Below, in pieces: positions 40,334 through 47,112 of a stretch of DNA of 64,000 bases. Position numbers and translations under genes: made by a program. Within the stretch, counting starts at the first letter, position 1. Each line of letters begins with the position of its first letter. This DNA is from Paragemmobacter ruber (lineage in GTDB: Bacteria; Pseudomonadota; Alphaproteobacteria; Rhodobacterales; Rhodobacteraceae): assembly GCF_009908315.1 (NCBI RefSeq), contig NZ_JAAATW010000001.1, positions 372,001 through 436,000 of the forward strand. Reading direction: 5' to 3'. Under the pieces are notes generated by a model. It made no database searches, was not told the DNA's origin, and worked only from the letters and a program-made list of their open reading frames with translations.

Positions 40334-41056
40334 TCAGATGTTGATCTGGCTGAACCCGTCGCGCAGGGCGCGGCTCCAGGCTTCGGACATCGCGCGGAAC
40401 TGTTCATCCCCCGCCTCGATCCGCCGCGTGTGCGACACGCGGCAGGCGTCCCTTTCGATCACGCAAAGATCCAGCGGCATGCCGACCGACAGGTTCGATC
40501 GCAGGGTGGAATCCATCGACAGAAGCACGGCCTTCTGCGCATCGGCGAGCGAGGTGGACGGCTTCACCACCCGGTCGAGGATGGGCTTGCCGTATTTGTG
40601 TTCGCCGATCTGAAGGAAGGGCGTGTCTTCGGTCGCCTCGATGAAATTGCCCTCGGGGTAGATAAGGAACATGCGCATCGTACCGCCACGCCGCTGTCCG
40701 GCGACGATCAGCGAGGCCGTCACGCCCTGCATGGCCGACATCTTTTCGTCGATATCCTCGCGCACCTTGGCCAGCATGTTGCCCACGATCTCGGCCACCT
40801 TGAGCATGGTGGGGGCCTTCATGATCGACTGGGTTTCGTCGGAATCGGGATCCTCGATCGCCTCGCGCAGGCGGGCGATGGTGGTCTGGGTCACCGACAG
40901 GCTGCCGGCCGTCATCATGGCGATGACGCGTTCGCCGGGTTCCTCGTACAAAAACATCTTGCGATAGGTGGATATGTTGTCGAGCCCCGCATTGGTGCGG
41001 GTGTCTGACAGGAGCACCATGCCTTCGTTCAGCAGAAGGCCCACGCAATAGGTCAT
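40334..41056 (-). CDS. Anbu (bacterial proteasome homologue)
   Basis: 240 residues. MTYCVGLLLNEGMVLLSDTRTNAGLDNISTYRKMF is the Anbu start, with Thr2 exposed after Met removal as in Ntn hydrolases, Asp18 in SDTRT, Lys33 in YRKMF, and GSLSVTQTTIARL, SLIVAGQRRGG and FLQIGEHKYGKPILDR following. Anbu assembles into helical or lock-washer rings rather than closed 20S proteasomes, and its substrate is unknown. It is last in a four-gene cluster with ATP-grasp, alpha-E and transglutaminase-like genes, the recurrent Anbu neighbourhood. Confidence 0.94.
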   Translation of the reverse strand: MTYCVGLLLNEGMVLLSDTRTNAGLDNISTYRKMFLYEEPGERVIAMMTAGSLSVTQTTIARLREAIEDPDSDETQSIMKAPTMLKVAEIVGNMLAKVREDIDEKMSAMQGVTASLIVAGQRRGGTMRMFLIYPEGNFIEATEDTPFLQIGEHKYGKPILDRVVKPSTSLADAQKAVLLSMDSTLRSNLSVGMPLDLCVIERDACRVSHTRRIEAGDEQFRAMSEAWSRALRDGFSQINI

Positions 41057-41083
41057 GCTTTCTTCCCCTTGGCTGCGACGACC

Positions 41084-41893
41084 CTATTGCTGCAAATCCT
41101 GGACCGCAACGGTAACGTCGAGGCTTTCCTGCCCCAGCCCCCGCGCGATCCCCCGGATGGGGGCCGCATCCTGCGCGTTCAGGCCCGAGCCAAGGCGGAT
41201 ATAGCGCGCATCGGGGCAGCAGCGATTGGCCGGATCAAAGCCGACCCAGCCCAGACCCGCGACATGGATTTCCGCCCAGGCATGGGCGGCCTCATGTGCC
41301 GAACCGTCCGCCGTGGCGAAAAGATAGCCCGAAACATAGCGCGCGGGCAGACCGATCGCCCGCGCGCAGGCGATCAGGGCATGGGCATGGTCCTGACAGA
41401 CGCCTTCGCCCAGCGCCAACGCCTCGGCCGCCGTGGTATGGGCGTGGGTGGCGCCCGGGCGGTAGGCAATGGCGTCGGCGACAGCGGCGGCAAGGCCGTG
41501 GGCGGTGGACAGCGCGCCTTCGGGATTGCGGGCGGCATGGGCCAGCGCGGTGAGCGCGGCATCGGCCCGGGTCGGGGGGGTATCGACCAGGTAGACCTCG
41601 GGCGGGAGAAGCTCGCGGTGGCCGCGCAAGAGGCCCGCCAGATCGAAGGTTTCCACCGTGCCGGTGACGCGCACCTCGATCTCGGTCACGGGGCCTTTGA
41701 CCGTCCAGCTTTGGACCACATCGCCCGCCCCGTCGCGGAAGGTTCCGCCGGGGATGCCGTCGGTGACGGTGACGGTCCAGTTGCGCGTCTTCTGCCCGGC
41801 AAAGACCGACGGCGTCAGGCGGTGGCTTTGCATCACGGCGCGAACCGGCTGGTCATAGCGGTAGCGTGTCACATGATCGACCGAAAGCAGCAT
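41084..41893 (-). CDS. transglutaminase-like cysteine peptidase of the Anbu cluster
   Basis: 269 residues. An N-terminal beta-rich domain (VTRYRYDQPVRAVMQSHRLTPSV, NWTVTVTDGIPGGTFRDGAGDVV) precedes the transglutaminase core with Cys166 (LGEGVCQDHAHALIACARAIGLPARYVSGYL), His204 (EAAHAWAEIHVAGLGWVGFDP) and Asp220. All three catalytic residues are present, so it is likely an amidase/peptidase or amide-bond-forming enzyme. It starts within the stop of the alpha-E gene (TGATG) and ends 27 bases before Anbu. Confidence 0.93.
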   Translation of the reverse strand: MLLSVDHVTRYRYDQPVRAVMQSHRLTPSVFAGQKTRNWTVTVTDGIPGGTFRDGAGDVVQSWTVKGPVTEIEVRVTGTVETFDLAGLLRGHRELLPPEVYLVDTPPTRADAALTALAHAARNPEGALSTAHGLAAAVADAIAYRPGATHAHTTAAEALALGEGVCQDHAHALIACARAIGLPARYVSGYLFATADGSAHEAAHAWAEIHVAGLGWVGFDPANRCCPDARYIRLGSGLNAQDAAPIRGIARGLGQESLDVTVAVQDLQQ

Positions 41894-42843
41894 CAGCGCA
41901 TGTCTCCGCTGAGATAGGTTTCATGGATCAGCGATCCGAGACCAGCCATTTCGCGGATGAAGCGCGAAAGGAAATCGTGCAGGCCTTCATCGAAGATGTC
42001 GTCCTCGCGCGTTTCGCGCAGGGCAACCAGCATGGACCGCGCCTGCGCCTGCGCGTCGGTCGTGGTGCCGTAGAGATGGGCCAGGCGGTCAAGATGGGCC
42101 GACAGCCCCTCGACACAGGTGATGAGCGAACGGGGGCATTGCGGGTTGAGGATCAGGAAATGGGCGATCTTGGCGGCCGTCACCTCGCCCCCATAGGCCC
42201 AGTGGAAGGCGCGGTGGGCCGACATCGCGCGCAGGAGGGTGGACCATTGGTAATTGTCCAGCCCCGAGCCCACGAAATCCACGCGCGGCAGAAGGACATA
42301 GTATTTCACATCCATCAGGCGGGCGGTGTTGTCGCCGCGTTCAAGGCTGTAGCCGATGTTGAGGAAATCCCACCCATCGTTGCGCAGGAGCGTGGCCTCG
42401 ATCGCGCCGCGCACCATGGCGGCGTGGCGCATCGTCCATTCCGTCAGGCGTGACAGTTCCAACTCGCTGCGCGGGGTGCGTTCGAGCTGGCGCAGTTCCT
42501 GAAACGCGGTGTTCAGCGCATCCCAGACCTGCGTCGTCAGCGCGGTGCGGACGATGCGGCCGTTTTCCCGCGCCGTGGTGATGCAGGAGGCGACCGAGGA
42601 CGGGTTGTCGCGGTCGAAGAAGAGGAAGCTTTCGATGTTGCGCTGCACGGGATCGCCATATTTGGCAGCGAAGGCATCGGCATTGCCCGAGGCTTGCAGG
42701 AGCGAATCCCATTCGTTGCGATATCCGGCGGCAGAAGGCAGCAGCGCGATGCGCGACCCCACCTCAAGCAGCCGTGCGGCGGTTTCGGCCCGTTCCATGT
42801 AGCGGGCGATCCAGAAGAGGTTGTCGGCGGTCCGGCTCAGCAT
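41893..42843 (-). CDS. alpha-E domain protein of the Anbu cluster
   Basis: 316 residues, all-helical. MLSRTADNLFWIARYMERAETAARLLEVGSRIALLP is the signature start, followed by DRDNPSSVASCITTARENGRIVRTALTTQVWDALN and LLRNDGWDFLNIGYSLERGDNTARLMDVKY. Alpha-E proteins co-occur with the permuted ATP-grasp and are thought to act with it, but their activity is not defined. Seven bases follow the ATP-grasp stop, and the transglutaminase-like start lies in its stop codon. Confidence 0.93.
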   Translation of the reverse strand: MLSRTADNLFWIARYMERAETAARLLEVGSRIALLPSAAGYRNEWDSLLQASGNADAFAAKYGDPVQRNIESFLFFDRDNPSSVASCITTARENGRIVRTALTTQVWDALNTAFQELRQLERTPRSELELSRLTEWTMRHAAMVRGAIEATLLRNDGWDFLNIGYSLERGDNTARLMDVKYYVLLPRVDFVGSGLDNYQWSTLLRAMSAHRAFHWAYGGEVTAAKIAHFLILNPQCPRSLITCVEGLSAHLDRLAHLYGTTTDAQAQARSMLVALRETREDDIFDEGLHDFLSRFIREMAGLGSLIHETYLSGDMR

Positions 42844-42850
42844 GTCACGA

Positions 42851-44263
42851 TCACTCCGCCAGCACCCAGGTGTCTTTCACGCCCCCGCCTTGGGACGAGT
42901 TCACCACCAGCGATCCTTCGGTCAGCGCCACCCGCGTCAGCGCGCCGGGGACAAGTTCGATCCGTTCGCCCACAAGGCAATAGGGCCGCAGGTCCACATG
43001 GCGCGGGGCCACGCCTTCGGCCACGAAGGTGGGGGTAGTGGACAGGGCCAGCGTCGGCTGGGCGATGTAATTGCCCGGATCGGCGGTGATCTTGGCGCGG
43101 AAGGTTTCCACCTGTTCCTTGGTGGCCTTGGGACCCACCAGCATGCCGTATCCGCCCGACCCATGCACCTCTTTCACCACGAGATCGGCAAGGTTATCCA
43201 GCACATAGCCCAGATCATCCTGCCTGCCGCATTGCCAGGTGGGCACGTTCTTCAGGATCGGCTCCTCACCCAGATAAAAGCGGACCATTTCGGGGACGAA
43301 GGTATAGACGGCCTTGTCATCGGCCACGCCCGCGCCGGGGGCAGAGCACAGGCTGACCCCGCCCGAGCGGTAGACATCCATCACGCCCGGCACGCCCAGC
43401 GTGCTATCGGGGCGGAAGCAGAGCGGGTCGATATAGGCGTCGTCGATGCGGCGGTAGATGACATCCACGCGCTTTGGGCCTTCGGTCGTGCGCATCCAGA
43501 CGAATTCGCCCTCGACGAAAAGATCCTGCCCTTCGACCAGTTCGATCCCCATCAGATCGGCCAGGAAGCTGTGTTCGTAATAGGCGCTGTTGAACGGGCC
43601 GGGGGTGAGCAGGACGATGGTCGGGTCCTTGCTGCATTTCGGCGGCGCGACCGAGGCGAGGGTGCGGCGGAGCAGGTCGGGGTAGCGATCCACCGGTTCG
43701 ATGCGGTTGCCGCGGAACAGATCGGGGAACATCCGCATCATGATTTCGCGGTTTTCCAGCATGTAGCTGACGCCGGACGGGGTGCGGCAATTGTCTTCCA
43801 GCACGAAGAATTCGTCCGGCCCGGTGCGGACGATGTCGATGCCCACGATATGGGAGTAGACGCCCTTTGGCGGCTTGATCCCGGCGACGGCCTTTTCATA
43901 GGCCTCGTTCTGATAGACGAGCCGGGCGGGGATGCGGCCCGCGCGGACGATCTCGCCCCGGCCATATACATCGACGAGAAAGGCATTGAGCGCGCGCGCC
44001 CGTTGCTTGATGCCCTTTTCCAGACGGCCCCATTCCGCCCCGGTGAAGACGCGGGGGAACATGTCGAAGGGGATCAGGCGATCGGGATCGCCGCCTTCGC
44101 CATAGACCGCGAAGGTGATGCCGATGCGGCGAAAGAGATCCTCGGCCTCGGCCTGCTTGAGGGTGCGCAGCTGGGCGGGCATGGCGTTCATCCAGTCCTC
44201 CAGCTGCGCATAGGGCGCGCGCACCTTGCCGTTCTGGTACATCTCGTTGAAGTATTGCGTCAC
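42851..44263 (-). CDS. circularly permuted ATP-grasp type 2 protein of the Anbu cluster
   Basis: About 470 residues. YGRGEIVRAGRIPARLVYQNEAYEKAVAG, VYSHIVGIDIVRTGPDEFFVLEDNCRTPSGVSYMLENR and VVKEVHGSGGYGMLVGPKATKEQVE are the hallmark blocks of this predicted peptide-ligase family (acyl-phosphate chemistry, joining an amine to a carboxylate). The start is uncertain: no ATG precedes the conserved region, and GTG at 44263 (after GGGGGG) or 44269, or ATG at 44242, are candidates. First gene of the cluster, divergent from the exonuclease gene. Confidence 0.9.
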   Translation of the reverse strand: MTQYFNEMYQNGKVRAPYAQLEDWMNAMPAQLRTLKQAEAEDLFRRIGITFAVYGEGGDPDRLIPFDMFPRVFTGAEWGRLEKGIKQRARALNAFLVDVYGRGEIVRAGRIPARLVYQNEAYEKAVAGIKPPKGVYSHIVGIDIVRTGPDEFFVLEDNCRTPSGVSYMLENREIMMRMFPDLFRGNRIEPVDRYPDLLRRTLASVAPPKCSKDPTIVLLTPGPFNSAYYEHSFLADLMGIELVEGQDLFVEGEFVWMRTTEGPKRVDVIYRRIDDAYIDPLCFRPDSTLGVPGVMDVYRSGGVSLCSAPGAGVADDKAVYTFVPEMVRFYLGEEPILKNVPTWQCGRQDDLGYVLDNLADLVVKEVHGSGGYGMLVGPKATKEQVETFRAKITADPGNYIAQPTLALSTTPTFVAEGVAPRHVDLRPYCLVGERIELVPGALTRVALTEGSLVVNSSQGGGVKDTWVLAE

Positions 44264-44437
44264 CGTCACGCCCCCCGCAGCCACCACTTGCGTGGAGTAA
44301 ATCAGGGCATCCGGCGCGGGGAAAGCGTTTCGTCCCGCAAAAAAGGGTGCAGCATGAGCAGATGCACAAAATTCAGGCAGGTGTTGCGAGTGGCCCGGCG
44401 CGCTGGACCGGGCTTTTGTGGGCGCTAGGTGCGGGGC

Positions 44438-45493
44438 ATGGCTGAGAATCCCGTCCTGACCTTTACCGATCGCGGCATCTTCTGCCCGGATGGCGGGTTT
44501 TTCATTGATCCGTGGCGACCGGTCGATCACGCGCTGATCACGCATGGCCATTCGGATCACGCGCGCTGGGGGCACCGGCGCTATCTGGCCACGCATCAGG
44601 CGCTGCCGGTGATGCGGCAACGGCTGGGCCAGATCGACGCAGCGGGGATCGCCTATGGCGAGCGGCTTCAGATCGGCGGGGTGACCGTCAGTTTCCACCC
44701 CGCGGGCCATGTGCCGGGATCGGCCCAGATCGCGGTGGAGCGGCGGGGCGAGGTCTGGGTCGTGTCGGGCGATTACAAGGTGGAGCCTGACGGGCTGGCC
44801 GAAGGATTCGTTCCGGTGCGCTGTCATGCCTTCATCAGCGAATGCACCTTCGGCCTGCCGGTCTTTCGCTGGCAACCGCAGGCGCGGGTGATGGAGGATA
44901 TCACCCGGTGGTGGGCGGCCAATGCGGCGGCGGGAAAGATGTCGATCCTCGGCGCCTACAGTTTCGGCAAGGCGCAGCGCCTGATGGCGGGGGTGGAGCG
45001 GATCGGCCCGATCCTGACGCATGGCGCGGTGGAAGAGATGACGGCAACCCTGCGCGCCCAAGGCTATCCCCTGCCCGAGACGGTGCGGGCGGTGGCAGGT
45101 GTGGATGGCAAGACGCATCCCGGCGCGCTGGTCATCGCGCCGCCCGCGGCGCTGGGGTCAGCTTGGGCGCGGCGGTTCGGCCCGGCGGAAGAGGCCTTTG
45201 CCAGCGGCTGGATGGCCGTGCGGGGCATCCGCCGCCGCCGTGCGCTGGGGACGGGCTTCGTGGTTTCCGACCATGCCGATTGGGACGGGCTGAACAGCGC
45301 GATCCGGGCGACGGGCTGCGAGCGGGTGTTCGTGACCCACGGCTATACCGCGCCCTTCCGGCGCTGGCTGGCCGAGAAGGGCTATGATGCGGGGATCGTG
45401 GCCACGGAATATGGGGAAGAGGCCGAAGAGGCCGCCGCCGCGCCGGTGGCCGACCCGGCCGCCCCGGGCGCAGAGGCGGGGGGCGCCCCGTGA
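44438..45493 (+). CDS. DNA-ligase-associated metallo-beta-lactamase-fold exonuclease
   Basis: 351 residues. ALITHGHSDHARWGH is the MBL metal motif HxHxDH, SFHPAGHVPGSAQIAVE and VSGDYKVEPDGLAEGF supply further ligands, then SECTFGLPVFRWQPQARVMEDI and FVVSDHADWDGLN with the beta-CASP-like histidine. This matches the ligase-associated exonuclease group (COG1236-like), active in DNA end processing. ATG 44438 is preferred over a GTG nine bases upstream. It overlaps the ligase gene by four bases (GTGA). Confidence 0.93.
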   Translation: MAENPVLTFTDRGIFCPDGGFFIDPWRPVDHALITHGHSDHARWGHRRYLATHQALPVMRQRLGQIDAAGIAYGERLQIGGVTVSFHPAGHVPGSAQIAVERRGEVWVVSGDYKVEPDGLAEGFVPVRCHAFISECTFGLPVFRWQPQARVMEDITRWWAANAAAGKMSILGAYSFGKAQRLMAGVERIGPILTHGAVEEMTATLRAQGYPLPETVRAVAGVDGKTHPGALVIAPPAALGSAWARRFGPAEEAFASGWMAVRGIRRRRALGTGFVVSDHADWDGLNSAIRATGCERVFVTHGYTAPFRRWLAEKGYDAGIVATEYGEEAEEAAAAPVADPAAPGAEAGGAP

Positions 45494-47112
45494 AAGCCTT
45501 TGCCGCCCTTTTCACTGCGCTGGACGGCACGACCAAGACATCGGCCAAGCTCGCCGCGCTGACGGAGTATTTCCGCACCGCGCCCGAGGCGGACCGGATC
45601 TGGACCATCGCGCTTTTGTCCGGGCGGCGGCCCAAGCGGAGCGTGAGTGCGACGGAGTTGCGCGCATGGGCTGCCGAGGCGGCGGGGCTGCCGCTTTGGC
45701 TGTTCGAGGAAAGCTATGCGATGGTGGGCGATCTGGCCGAGACCATCGCGCTGATCCTGCCCCCGGCCGAGGCGCGGGTGGAGGTGTCGCTGTCCGAGAT
45801 GATCGCCGCGTTGATCGCGCTGACCGGCCAGCCCGAGGCGCAGCGGCGGGCGGCGATCCTGCGCCATTGGGGGCAGCTTGGCGCGACGGAGCGGCTGTTG
45901 TTCAACAAGCTGATCACCGGCGGGTACCGCATGGGGGTGAGCCAGGGCTTGATGACGCGCGCGCTGGCCATGGCCACGGGCGTGGAAGAGGCGGTGCTGG
46001 CGCATCGCCTGATGGGGGACTGGTCGCCGCAGGAGATGCGCTTCGAGATGCTGGTGCGCGCCGATGCGGGCGGGCCGGATTCGCGCCCCTACCCCTTTGC
46101 CCTTGCCGCACCGCTGGAGGAGGGGCCGGACAGCCTTGGCGATCCGGGTGGATGGCGGGCAGAGTGGAAATGGGATGGCATCCGGGGGCAACTGATCCAG
46201 CGGGCGGGGGCTTTTGCCCTGTGGTCGCGCGGGGAGGAATTGATCACCGACCGCTTCCCGGAATTCGCGCCGCTGGCCGATTTCCTGCCGCATGGCACGG
46301 TGCTGGATGGCGAGGTCGTAGCCTGGGATGGGGCTTGGGACGGGACCTCGGACGGGGCGGCGGGGCGCCCCCTGCCTTTTGCCGATCTGCAAAAGCGGAT
46401 CGGGCGCAAAACGGTACCGAGAAAGCTGCTGGCCGAGGCGCCCGCGCTGATGCTGGCCTATGATCTGCTGGAAGAGGCCGGGCAGGATCTACGGGAACAT
46501 CCTTTCGACGCGCGGCGGGCGCGGCTAGAGGCGCTGGTGGCGAGGCTGCCGGAGGGCCTGCCGCTGCGCCTGTCGCCTGCCATCGCCTTTGACGATTGGG
46601 CAAGTCTGGCCGCGACACGCGCGACAGCGCGGGAGCGGCTGGCGGAAGGGGTGATGCTGAAACGCGCAACCTCGCCCTATCATGTGGGGCGAAAGCGCGG
46701 AGATTGGTGGAAGTGGAAGCTGGATCCGTGGACGGTGGACGCGGTGATGATCTATGCGCAGGCGGGCCATGGGCGGCGGGCGAACCTCTACACCGATTTC
46801 ACCTTCGCGGTGCGGGATGGAAATGCGCTGGTCCCCTTTACCAAGGCCTATTCCGGGCTGACCGACGCCGAATTTGCCGAGATCACCCGCTGGGTGCAGA
46901 AGAACACGCTGGAACGGTTCGGCCCCGTGCGGCGGGTGCCGCCGGAACTGGTGTTCGAGATCGGGTTCGAGGGGATACAGGAAAGCCCGCGCCACAAGTC
47001 GGGGATCGCGCTGCGCTTTCCGCGCATGATCCGCTGGCGCCGCGACAAGCCGGTGGACGAGATCGACACGCTGGAGGGTTTGCGCGGCTTGCTGCGCGCC
47101 GCGCAGGCGTAG
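45490..47112 (+). CDS. ATP-dependent DNA ligase (cisplatin-damage-response type)
   Basis: 540 residues, GTG start within the exonuclease stop. A helical N-terminal domain (about 1-200) precedes the adenylation core with Lys227 in EWKWDGIRGQLI, FPEFAPLADFLPHGTVLDGEVVAWD, EGVMLKRATSPYHVGRKRGDWWKWK (motif IV/V) and an OB-fold end. Related operons normally add a Lhr-type helicase and a metallophosphoesterase; here neither follows, and the next gene is PepF. Its TAG stop lies inside a GTAGGATGGGC palindrome. Confidence 0.93.
   Translation: MKAFAALFTALDGTTKTSAKLAALTEYFRTAPEADRIWTIALLSGRRPKRSVSATELRAWAAEAAGLPLWLFEESYAMVGDLAETIALILPPAEARVEVSLSEMIAALIALTGQPEAQRRAAILRHWGQLGATERLLFNKLITGGYRMGVSQGLMTRALAMATGVEEAVLAHRLMGDWSPQEMRFEMLVRADAGGPDSRPYPFALAAPLEEGPDSLGDPGGWRAEWKWDGIRGQLIQRAGAFALWSRGEELITDRFPEFAPLADFLPHGTVLDGEVVAWDGAWDGTSDGAAGRPLPFADLQKRIGRKTVPRKLLAEAPALMLAYDLLEEAGQDLREHPFDARRARLEALVARLPEGLPLRLSPAIAFDDWASLAATRATARERLAEGVMLKRATSPYHVGRKRGDWWKWKLDPWTVDAVMIYAQAGHGRRANLYTDFTFAVRDGNALVPFTKAYSGLTDAEFAEITRWVQKNTLERFGPVRRVPPELVFEIGFEGIQESPRHKSGIALRFPRMIRWRRDKPVDEIDTLEGLRGLLRAAQA

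Follow-up and report, generated by a model that had tools for sequence, protein, structure and literature searches.

The closest described system is the Anbu operon of Proteobacteria. Two papers, PMC5666114 and PMC6376114 (like the other papers below, cited for the part of each that was available), credit this four-gene operon to Valas and Bourne 2008 and Iyer et al. 2009. The set is already published, and the cluster itself is not new. According to those parts, Anbu assembles as an open-ring dodecamer or a lock-washer, no peptidase activity was found on standard substrates in several species, no specific complexes or specific partner were detected, and the Anbu substrate is not known. The only activity reported in the available part of PMC6376114 is phosphate release by the ATP-grasp of Y. 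bercovieri.

A nitrogen link has also been reported already, for Pseudomonas and Burkholderia as well as in a sigma-54 survey of 2025. PP_2685-PP_2688 of P. putida KT2440 is like the locus studied here in having a proteasome-like gene, a transglutaminase and two hypothetical neighbours, and in being nitrogen-induced; NtrB/NtrC is the named regulator (PMC7801951). We infer that PP_2687-2688 are Alpha-E and the ATP-grasp. Under nitrogen limitation PP_2686-2688 went up 11- to 37-fold, and the proteasome-like gene PP_2685 went up 1.1- to 4.8-fold. Induction was seen in all strains, the rpoN mutant among them, so strict sigma-54 dependence is doubtful in this species. The Burkholderia cenocepacia locus I35_5080-5083 (PMC5491218) belongs to the NtrC/sigma-54 regulon with its DUF404/407, DUF403 and transglutaminase-like genes, whose expression fell 6- to 9-fold when ntrC was mutated. 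That locus differs in having a second, large transglutaminase-like gene, and the word "proteasome" is absent from the main text of the paper. Marine metagenome counts tie these domains to urea metabolism (PMC3597751), and a sigma-54 survey includes the proteasome-type protease COG3484 (PMC12316311). For the most part, these published data concur with nitrogen control. Among the open-licence literature matches listed, we found no sigma-54-independent version in Rhodobacteraceae. PMC5343134, which surveys the NtrC regulon, contains neither "transglutaminase" nor "proteasome" in its main text. What we argue is new here is a strong sign, at the sequence level, of NtrC control over the Anbu operon in this bacterial group.

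The window is the whole stretch of DNA analysed, 64,000 nucleotides from Paragemmobacter ruber. Its relevant features are these:

44363..44379, minus strand: NtrC-type palindrome TGCCTGAATTTTGTGCA (TGC-N11-GCA), from the upstream alignment and motif score
44296..44305, minus strand: extended -10-like element CTGATTTACT, a predicted promoter 57 nt downstream of the NtrC-type box, from a motif match
42851..44263, minus strand: circularly permuted ATP-grasp, 470 aa, assigned GTG start, from the ORF, Pfam and 3n6x similarity
41893..42843, minus strand: Alpha-E protein (formerly DUF403), 316 aa, from the ORF and Pfam
41084..41893, minus strand: transglutaminase-like protein, 269 aa, from the ORF and Pfam, with C166, H204 and D220 present
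40334..41056, minus strand: Anbu (ancestral beta subunit), a proteasome-type Ntn-hydrolase homologue, 240 aa, from the ORF, Pfam and similarity to solved chains, with T2, D18 and K33 present

ATP-grasp, Alpha-E, transglutaminase-like protein and Anbu follow each other on one strand, which is the order of the four-gene Anbu operon. As far as the available text describes that operon, the locus has the same four genes, the same order and the same candidate Anbu catalytic residues, and its proteins show no visible difference. The upstream region here resembles a sigma-54-independent NtrC promoter. The coordinates and spacings in the initial annotation agree with the ORF calls: a gap of 7 bases from ATP-grasp to Alpha-E, an overlap of 1 base between Alpha-E and the transglutaminase-like gene, and 27 bases from there to Anbu. 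Its naming of the four genes is backed by strong Pfam matches. These are CP_ATPgrasp_2 (1.4e-164; PF14403 matched full length, 1-374 of 374), Alpha-E (2.7e-90), Transglut_core (2.8e-21) with Bact_transglu_N (6.6e-17), and Proteasome (2.8e-8) on Anbu. All four genes were detected by tblastn in 82 of 96 loci, and some of the remaining 14 are truncated at contig ends. The host genome has one Alpha-E match.

The Anbu protein is nearest to Anbu among solved chains. The top three matches are named Anbu (4.6e-78 to 4.7e-73), followed by two named Peptidase (1.7e-57, 6.2e-56) and then a 20S chain at 0.0058. Its Thr nucleophile, Asp17 and Lys32/33 (mature numbering) are T2, D18 and K33. The Cys-His-Asp triad and the Transglut_core match place the third protein in the transglutaminase-like superfamily. 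The catalytic residues had been called intact, and they are present in the window and in nearly all compared loci: T2 in 156/158, D18 in 157/158 and K33 in 157/158, and C166 in 131/137, H204 in 134/137 and D220 in 136/137 (window included; a few loci overlap, and the transglutaminase-like protein is the best-scoring one per locus). The closest solved structure to the ATP-grasp is 3n6x (2.3e-196), a putative glutathionylspermidine synthase-like ATP-grasp, a name that is annotation only. For Alpha-E neither a single-sequence nor a profile search found a convincing solved-structure relative.

The start of the ATP-grasp had to be assigned, because its reading frame has no stop upstream as far as 45118. 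The translation start is likely the GTG at 44263. This codon is favoured because the similarity to 3n6x starts at residue 2 of its product, a G-run ends 7 nt ahead of it and the predicted -10 element ends 33 nt ahead of it.

The alignment of upstream DNA from relatives has a conserved block, a TGC-N11-GCA palindrome whose core is A/T. Of the 46 close relatives, 31 have a box scoring at least 7.8 ahead of their ATP-grasp gene (32/47 with the window; shuffles 3.6%), and 15/46 fall below that threshold. The upstreams of seven other nearby genes served as controls and have the box in 2/253 in total: Alpha-E 0/46, transglutaminase-like 1/47, Anbu 1/53, TPR 0/27, SCP2 0/30, ligase 0/20 and helicase 0/30. 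For pepF it was 9/30. These matches are probably the same box in a shared region, since pepF divergently adjoins the ATP-grasp gene in many loci. An extended -10 match (at least 8 of 10) was found in 20 of the 42 upstreams with a box of at least 7.4, and in 16 of those 20 the box-to-element distance is 56-58 nt. The box is kept across genera at this fixed spacing, and much of the region drifts. A consensus sigma-70 scan of the window region gave 0 matches. It must be noted that similarity rather than taxonomy defined the sets. Among the 46 of the close set are a Sphingomonadaceae MAG (L065), a gammaproteobacterial MAG (L079) and a Thalassospira (L080), and several of the 35 loci in the distant alphaproteobacterial set belong to the same family as the window. 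Left out were tblastn matches that began away from the start of the query, upstream stretches of less than 150-200 nt and loci cut by contig ends. Many compared loci are mutual relatives, so p-values overstate independence. The initial annotation did not mention an upstream nitrogen-control element.

TGC-N11-GCA is the NtrC motif used for other bacteria in PMC10746234, and the conserved upstream site of this form is the mark by which we would assign the operon to the NtrC regulon. The strict palindrome occurs at 8 sites in the host genome against 0 for the reversed control; across 19 genus genomes the figures are 2-9 each against 0-2. One own-genome site lies 37 nt ahead of dusB-ntrB, with ispDF on its other side. 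Another precedes a locus with a presumable amide role, which encodes an AmiC-like binding protein, an AmiR-like ANTAR protein and a transporter. A third is upstream of a dihydropyrimidine-dehydrogenase-like gene, which may have a GltD-like role; its arms are similar in make-up to those of the GC-rich sites, from which it is separated by position only. Those other four sites have GC-rich arms 1, 5, 79 and 149 nt past the stop of the preceding ORF, and they look like hairpins. The one at 79 nt is also about 90 nt ahead of the next ORF. The palindrome pattern alone is not specific, because 4/8 strict sites are hairpin-like and follow stop codons. The other three nitrogen-linked sites of the host genome do not share the -10 spacing of the operon.

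The host's own NtrC has no GAFTGA loop, which makes it an NtrC of the sigma-54-independent R. capsulatus type, so the window promoter is expected to be sigma-54-independent. The available text of PMC10274813 states the loop deletion for Rhodobacterales, and R. capsulatus NtrC acts with sigma-70 (PMC10274813, PMC6925177, PMC8777916). A sigma-54 promoter in the window was considered and rejected, with a best score of only 10.5 of 14.5. In the close set sigma-54 sites are no commoner than background (1/46). They occur in 5/35 of the more distant alphaproteobacteria (null 0.5%) and in 12/41 of the wide phylum set (null 0.7%), where boxes occur in 13/35 (null 3.1%) and 13/41 (null 6.7%), respectively. 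In the wide set a score of at least 13 is reached by 12/41 ATP-grasp upstreams versus 0/143 for inner genes, and 0/60 Anbu upstreams reach 13. The alphaproteobacterial set gives 6/81 versus 0/263. The sigma-54 signal is weak in that whole set, and is clear only against the inner-gene upstreams and in the wider set. Since sites scoring at least 13 precede the ATP-grasp gene only, this argues that the four genes form one transcript. The one-operon layout first proposed for the cluster also agrees with predicted promoter signals ahead of the first gene and almost never ahead of the inner genes. We read the upstream evidence as a strong sequence sign that the operon is under the nitrogen-starvation regulator NtrC in this bacterial group.

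Anbu does not always stay with this operon. Among 299 phylum genomes Anbu is present in 102 and Alpha-E in 156, and they occur together in 101 versus 53 expected. Only one Anbu genome (G255) is without Alpha-E (101/102 have it). Two further genomes, which came up in a search for Anbu relatives, still have Anbu at the ancestral site. These are Rhodobacteraceae bacterium QY30 (L057, complete) and a MAG (L046). Neither has an ATP-grasp or Alpha-E match, and the box is absent ahead of Anbu in both. Family f158 (seven genomes) has Anbu located away from the ATP-grasp and Alpha-E genes, next to what reads as MutS in 6/7. In 6/7 of these genomes a sigma-54-like site ending TTGCT lies 37-48 nt ahead of the ATP-grasp gene, with only 2/6 of the sites reaching a score of 13. 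Five other genomes have the genes apart (L264-L268); a sigma-54 score of 13 is reached in one and a box of at least 7.8 in two. Anbu is also apart in L066, and there a box-like site (score 8.0) lies 29 nt ahead of Anbu itself. In other lineages ATP-grasp and Alpha-E are fused in one gene, which occurs alongside Anbu and at least one additional transglutaminase-like gene. From this pattern of co-occurrence and uncoupling, Anbu would rely on the other genes more than they rely on Anbu, and separate control is possible. The best reading is that the first three genes are the core and Anbu is a separable hydrolase. The earlier claim of one pathway stands in part. It is borne out by the one-operon layout, but Anbu is apart in several lineages and is kept without an Alpha-E or ATP-grasp match in two genomes. 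The uncoupling guides which deletions come first.

We lean, at somewhat better than even confidence, toward a nitrogen-stress system that would make and break an amide bond, either isopeptide or peptide-amine. Read directly from the genomes are gene order and content, the intact residues, the box at a fixed -10 distance and the co-occurrence of Anbu and Alpha-E. On ammonium shortage phosphorylated NtrC, here without the sigma-54-contacting loop, would bind the box and work with the sigma-70 polymerase. The ATP-grasp would use ATP to activate a carboxylate as an acyl phosphate and couple it to an amine. Alpha-E may be its dedicated partner, because both are fused in paralogues. The transglutaminase-like protein would carry out amide transfer or hydrolysis through its Cys-His-Asp triad, and Anbu, as a separable Ntn-hydrolase, would trim the product or clear it away. 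The initial annotation proposed a set that builds and then trims a peptide tag or small amide product, and this idea seems to fit the gene content and the one-sided co-occurrence. Nitrogen control gives a hint of the operon's purpose; it does not pinpoint the chemistry. The nitrogen signal recurs in distant lineages with differing promoter types, which gives a condition for the hunt for the Anbu substrate.

One can go further, tentatively, and imagine a reversible amide-conjugation switch for nitrogen stress. The ATP-grasp, Alpha-E and transglutaminase-like protein would be the induced writer and the separable Anbu the eraser. Strong selection for nitrogen control would then have turned a sigma-54 promoter into an NtrC promoter of the sigma-70 type wherever the sigma-54 loop was lost from NtrC. 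If this speculative scenario were true, the task of Anbu would be to edit small amide conjugates, not to shred proteins.

A rather unlikely reading is that Anbu is a true protease. The other three proteins would tag cell proteins and Anbu would degrade them, and amino acids would be recovered in nitrogen starvation. Anbu keeps the proteasome triad, nitrogen control would go well with protein turnover, and the available part of PMC5666114 reports that proteasome inhibitors bind Anbu and favours protein degradation over peptide synthesis. However, standard substrates gave no peptidase activity in either Anbu paper, and PMC5666114 states that a partner AAA ATPase is absent. The core is kept without Anbu, because 55/156 Alpha-E genomes have no Anbu match. 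The P. putida figures above also show only a small rise for PP_2685 compared with the other three genes.

The palindrome could instead be the site of another regulator, or a functionless shared inheritance ahead of a constitutive operon. We consider this quite improbable. In its favour, expression was unchanged under several other conditions, as cited in PMC5666114, half of the eight strict genome matches are hairpin-like, and many of the loci are mutual relatives. But the box persists across genera at its -10 spacing while the region drifts, the same motif heads dusB-ntrB in the host genome, and sigma-54 sites, boxes or both turn up in distant lineages. Another very unlikely reading is that the genes build a peptide or polymer as a nitrogen store, in a role like that of cyanophycin, for Anbu to mobilise later. 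A predicted ATP-dependent amide former and hydrolases under nitrogen control would suit it, but storage is expected in nitrogen excess and the control seen is for nitrogen shortage.

For the preferred amide-bond system, no substrate gene was found adjoining the cluster, so a metabolite or an ordinary protein of the cell is the probable substrate. The suggestion to compare Anbu neighbourhoods for a conserved small-peptide gene was carried out, and the claim that the cluster holds no substrate gene extends to 103 loci for genes of at least 90 aa and to 156 loci for ORFs of 20-95 aa. Outside the close set (103 loci), no protein family in the flanks within 7 kb recurs in more than 13/103, the commonest being an ABC ATPase. 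Among the 14 largest clusters of short ORFs (within 1.2 kb, 156 loci) there is no cross-lineage family. These clusters are confined to close relatives and were rejected as substrate candidates; they are either SCP2 itself or, judged by their position and composition, out-of-frame shadows of flanking genes. Within the genus, 7 of the 8 loci with long flanks (L030-L037) have the same neighbours. On one side are a Suv3-like helicase, a TPR protein, SCP2 and an alpha/beta hydrolase, and on the other are a gene without a Pfam match, an ATP-dependent DNA ligase and oligopeptidase F.

Anbu is retained at its ancestral site in Rhodobacteraceae bacterium QY30 (L057, a complete genome) and in the MAG L046. 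The coding sequence is intact in both, and the candidate catalytic Thr, Asp and Lys are present. Both genomes were searched for ATP-grasp and Alpha-E with no match to either, and the region upstream of Anbu has no NtrC box, the predicted TGC-N11-GCA palindrome.

There are also superclusters (loci L191, L193-L195, L197, L200, L203, L204 and L206) in which Anbu is accompanied by transglutaminase-like genes and by ATP-grasp and Alpha-E in two versions, one pair separate and the other fused. One transglutaminase-like protein is usually about 1100 aa; its gene was not seen within the stretch of L204 examined.

In some relatives Anbu is separated from the transglutaminase-like gene by an inserted gene, whose protein product is about 210-240 aa long:

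L043:8279-8908, inserted gene
L045:8242-8907, inserted gene
L048:8243-8908, inserted gene
L090:8184-8906, inserted gene

The protein begins M(A/S)L(A/T)YDFDIF and has a hydrophobic C-terminal stretch in these four loci, where the reading is full. A Pfam scan of three copies gave no match. When 19 genomes of the window's genus were compared it was found in three (G016, G009 and G015) and was absent from the window's own.

A divergent gene pair adjoins the window operon:

44429-47112, 354-aa protein and ATP-dependent DNA ligase

The 354-aa protein has no match in a Pfam search; its position makes it a putative ligase-associated exonuclease.

In one relative (L033:12170-12571) the ATP-grasp gene is separated from the Alpha-E gene by an ORF of 130 aa whose C-terminus is hydrophobic.
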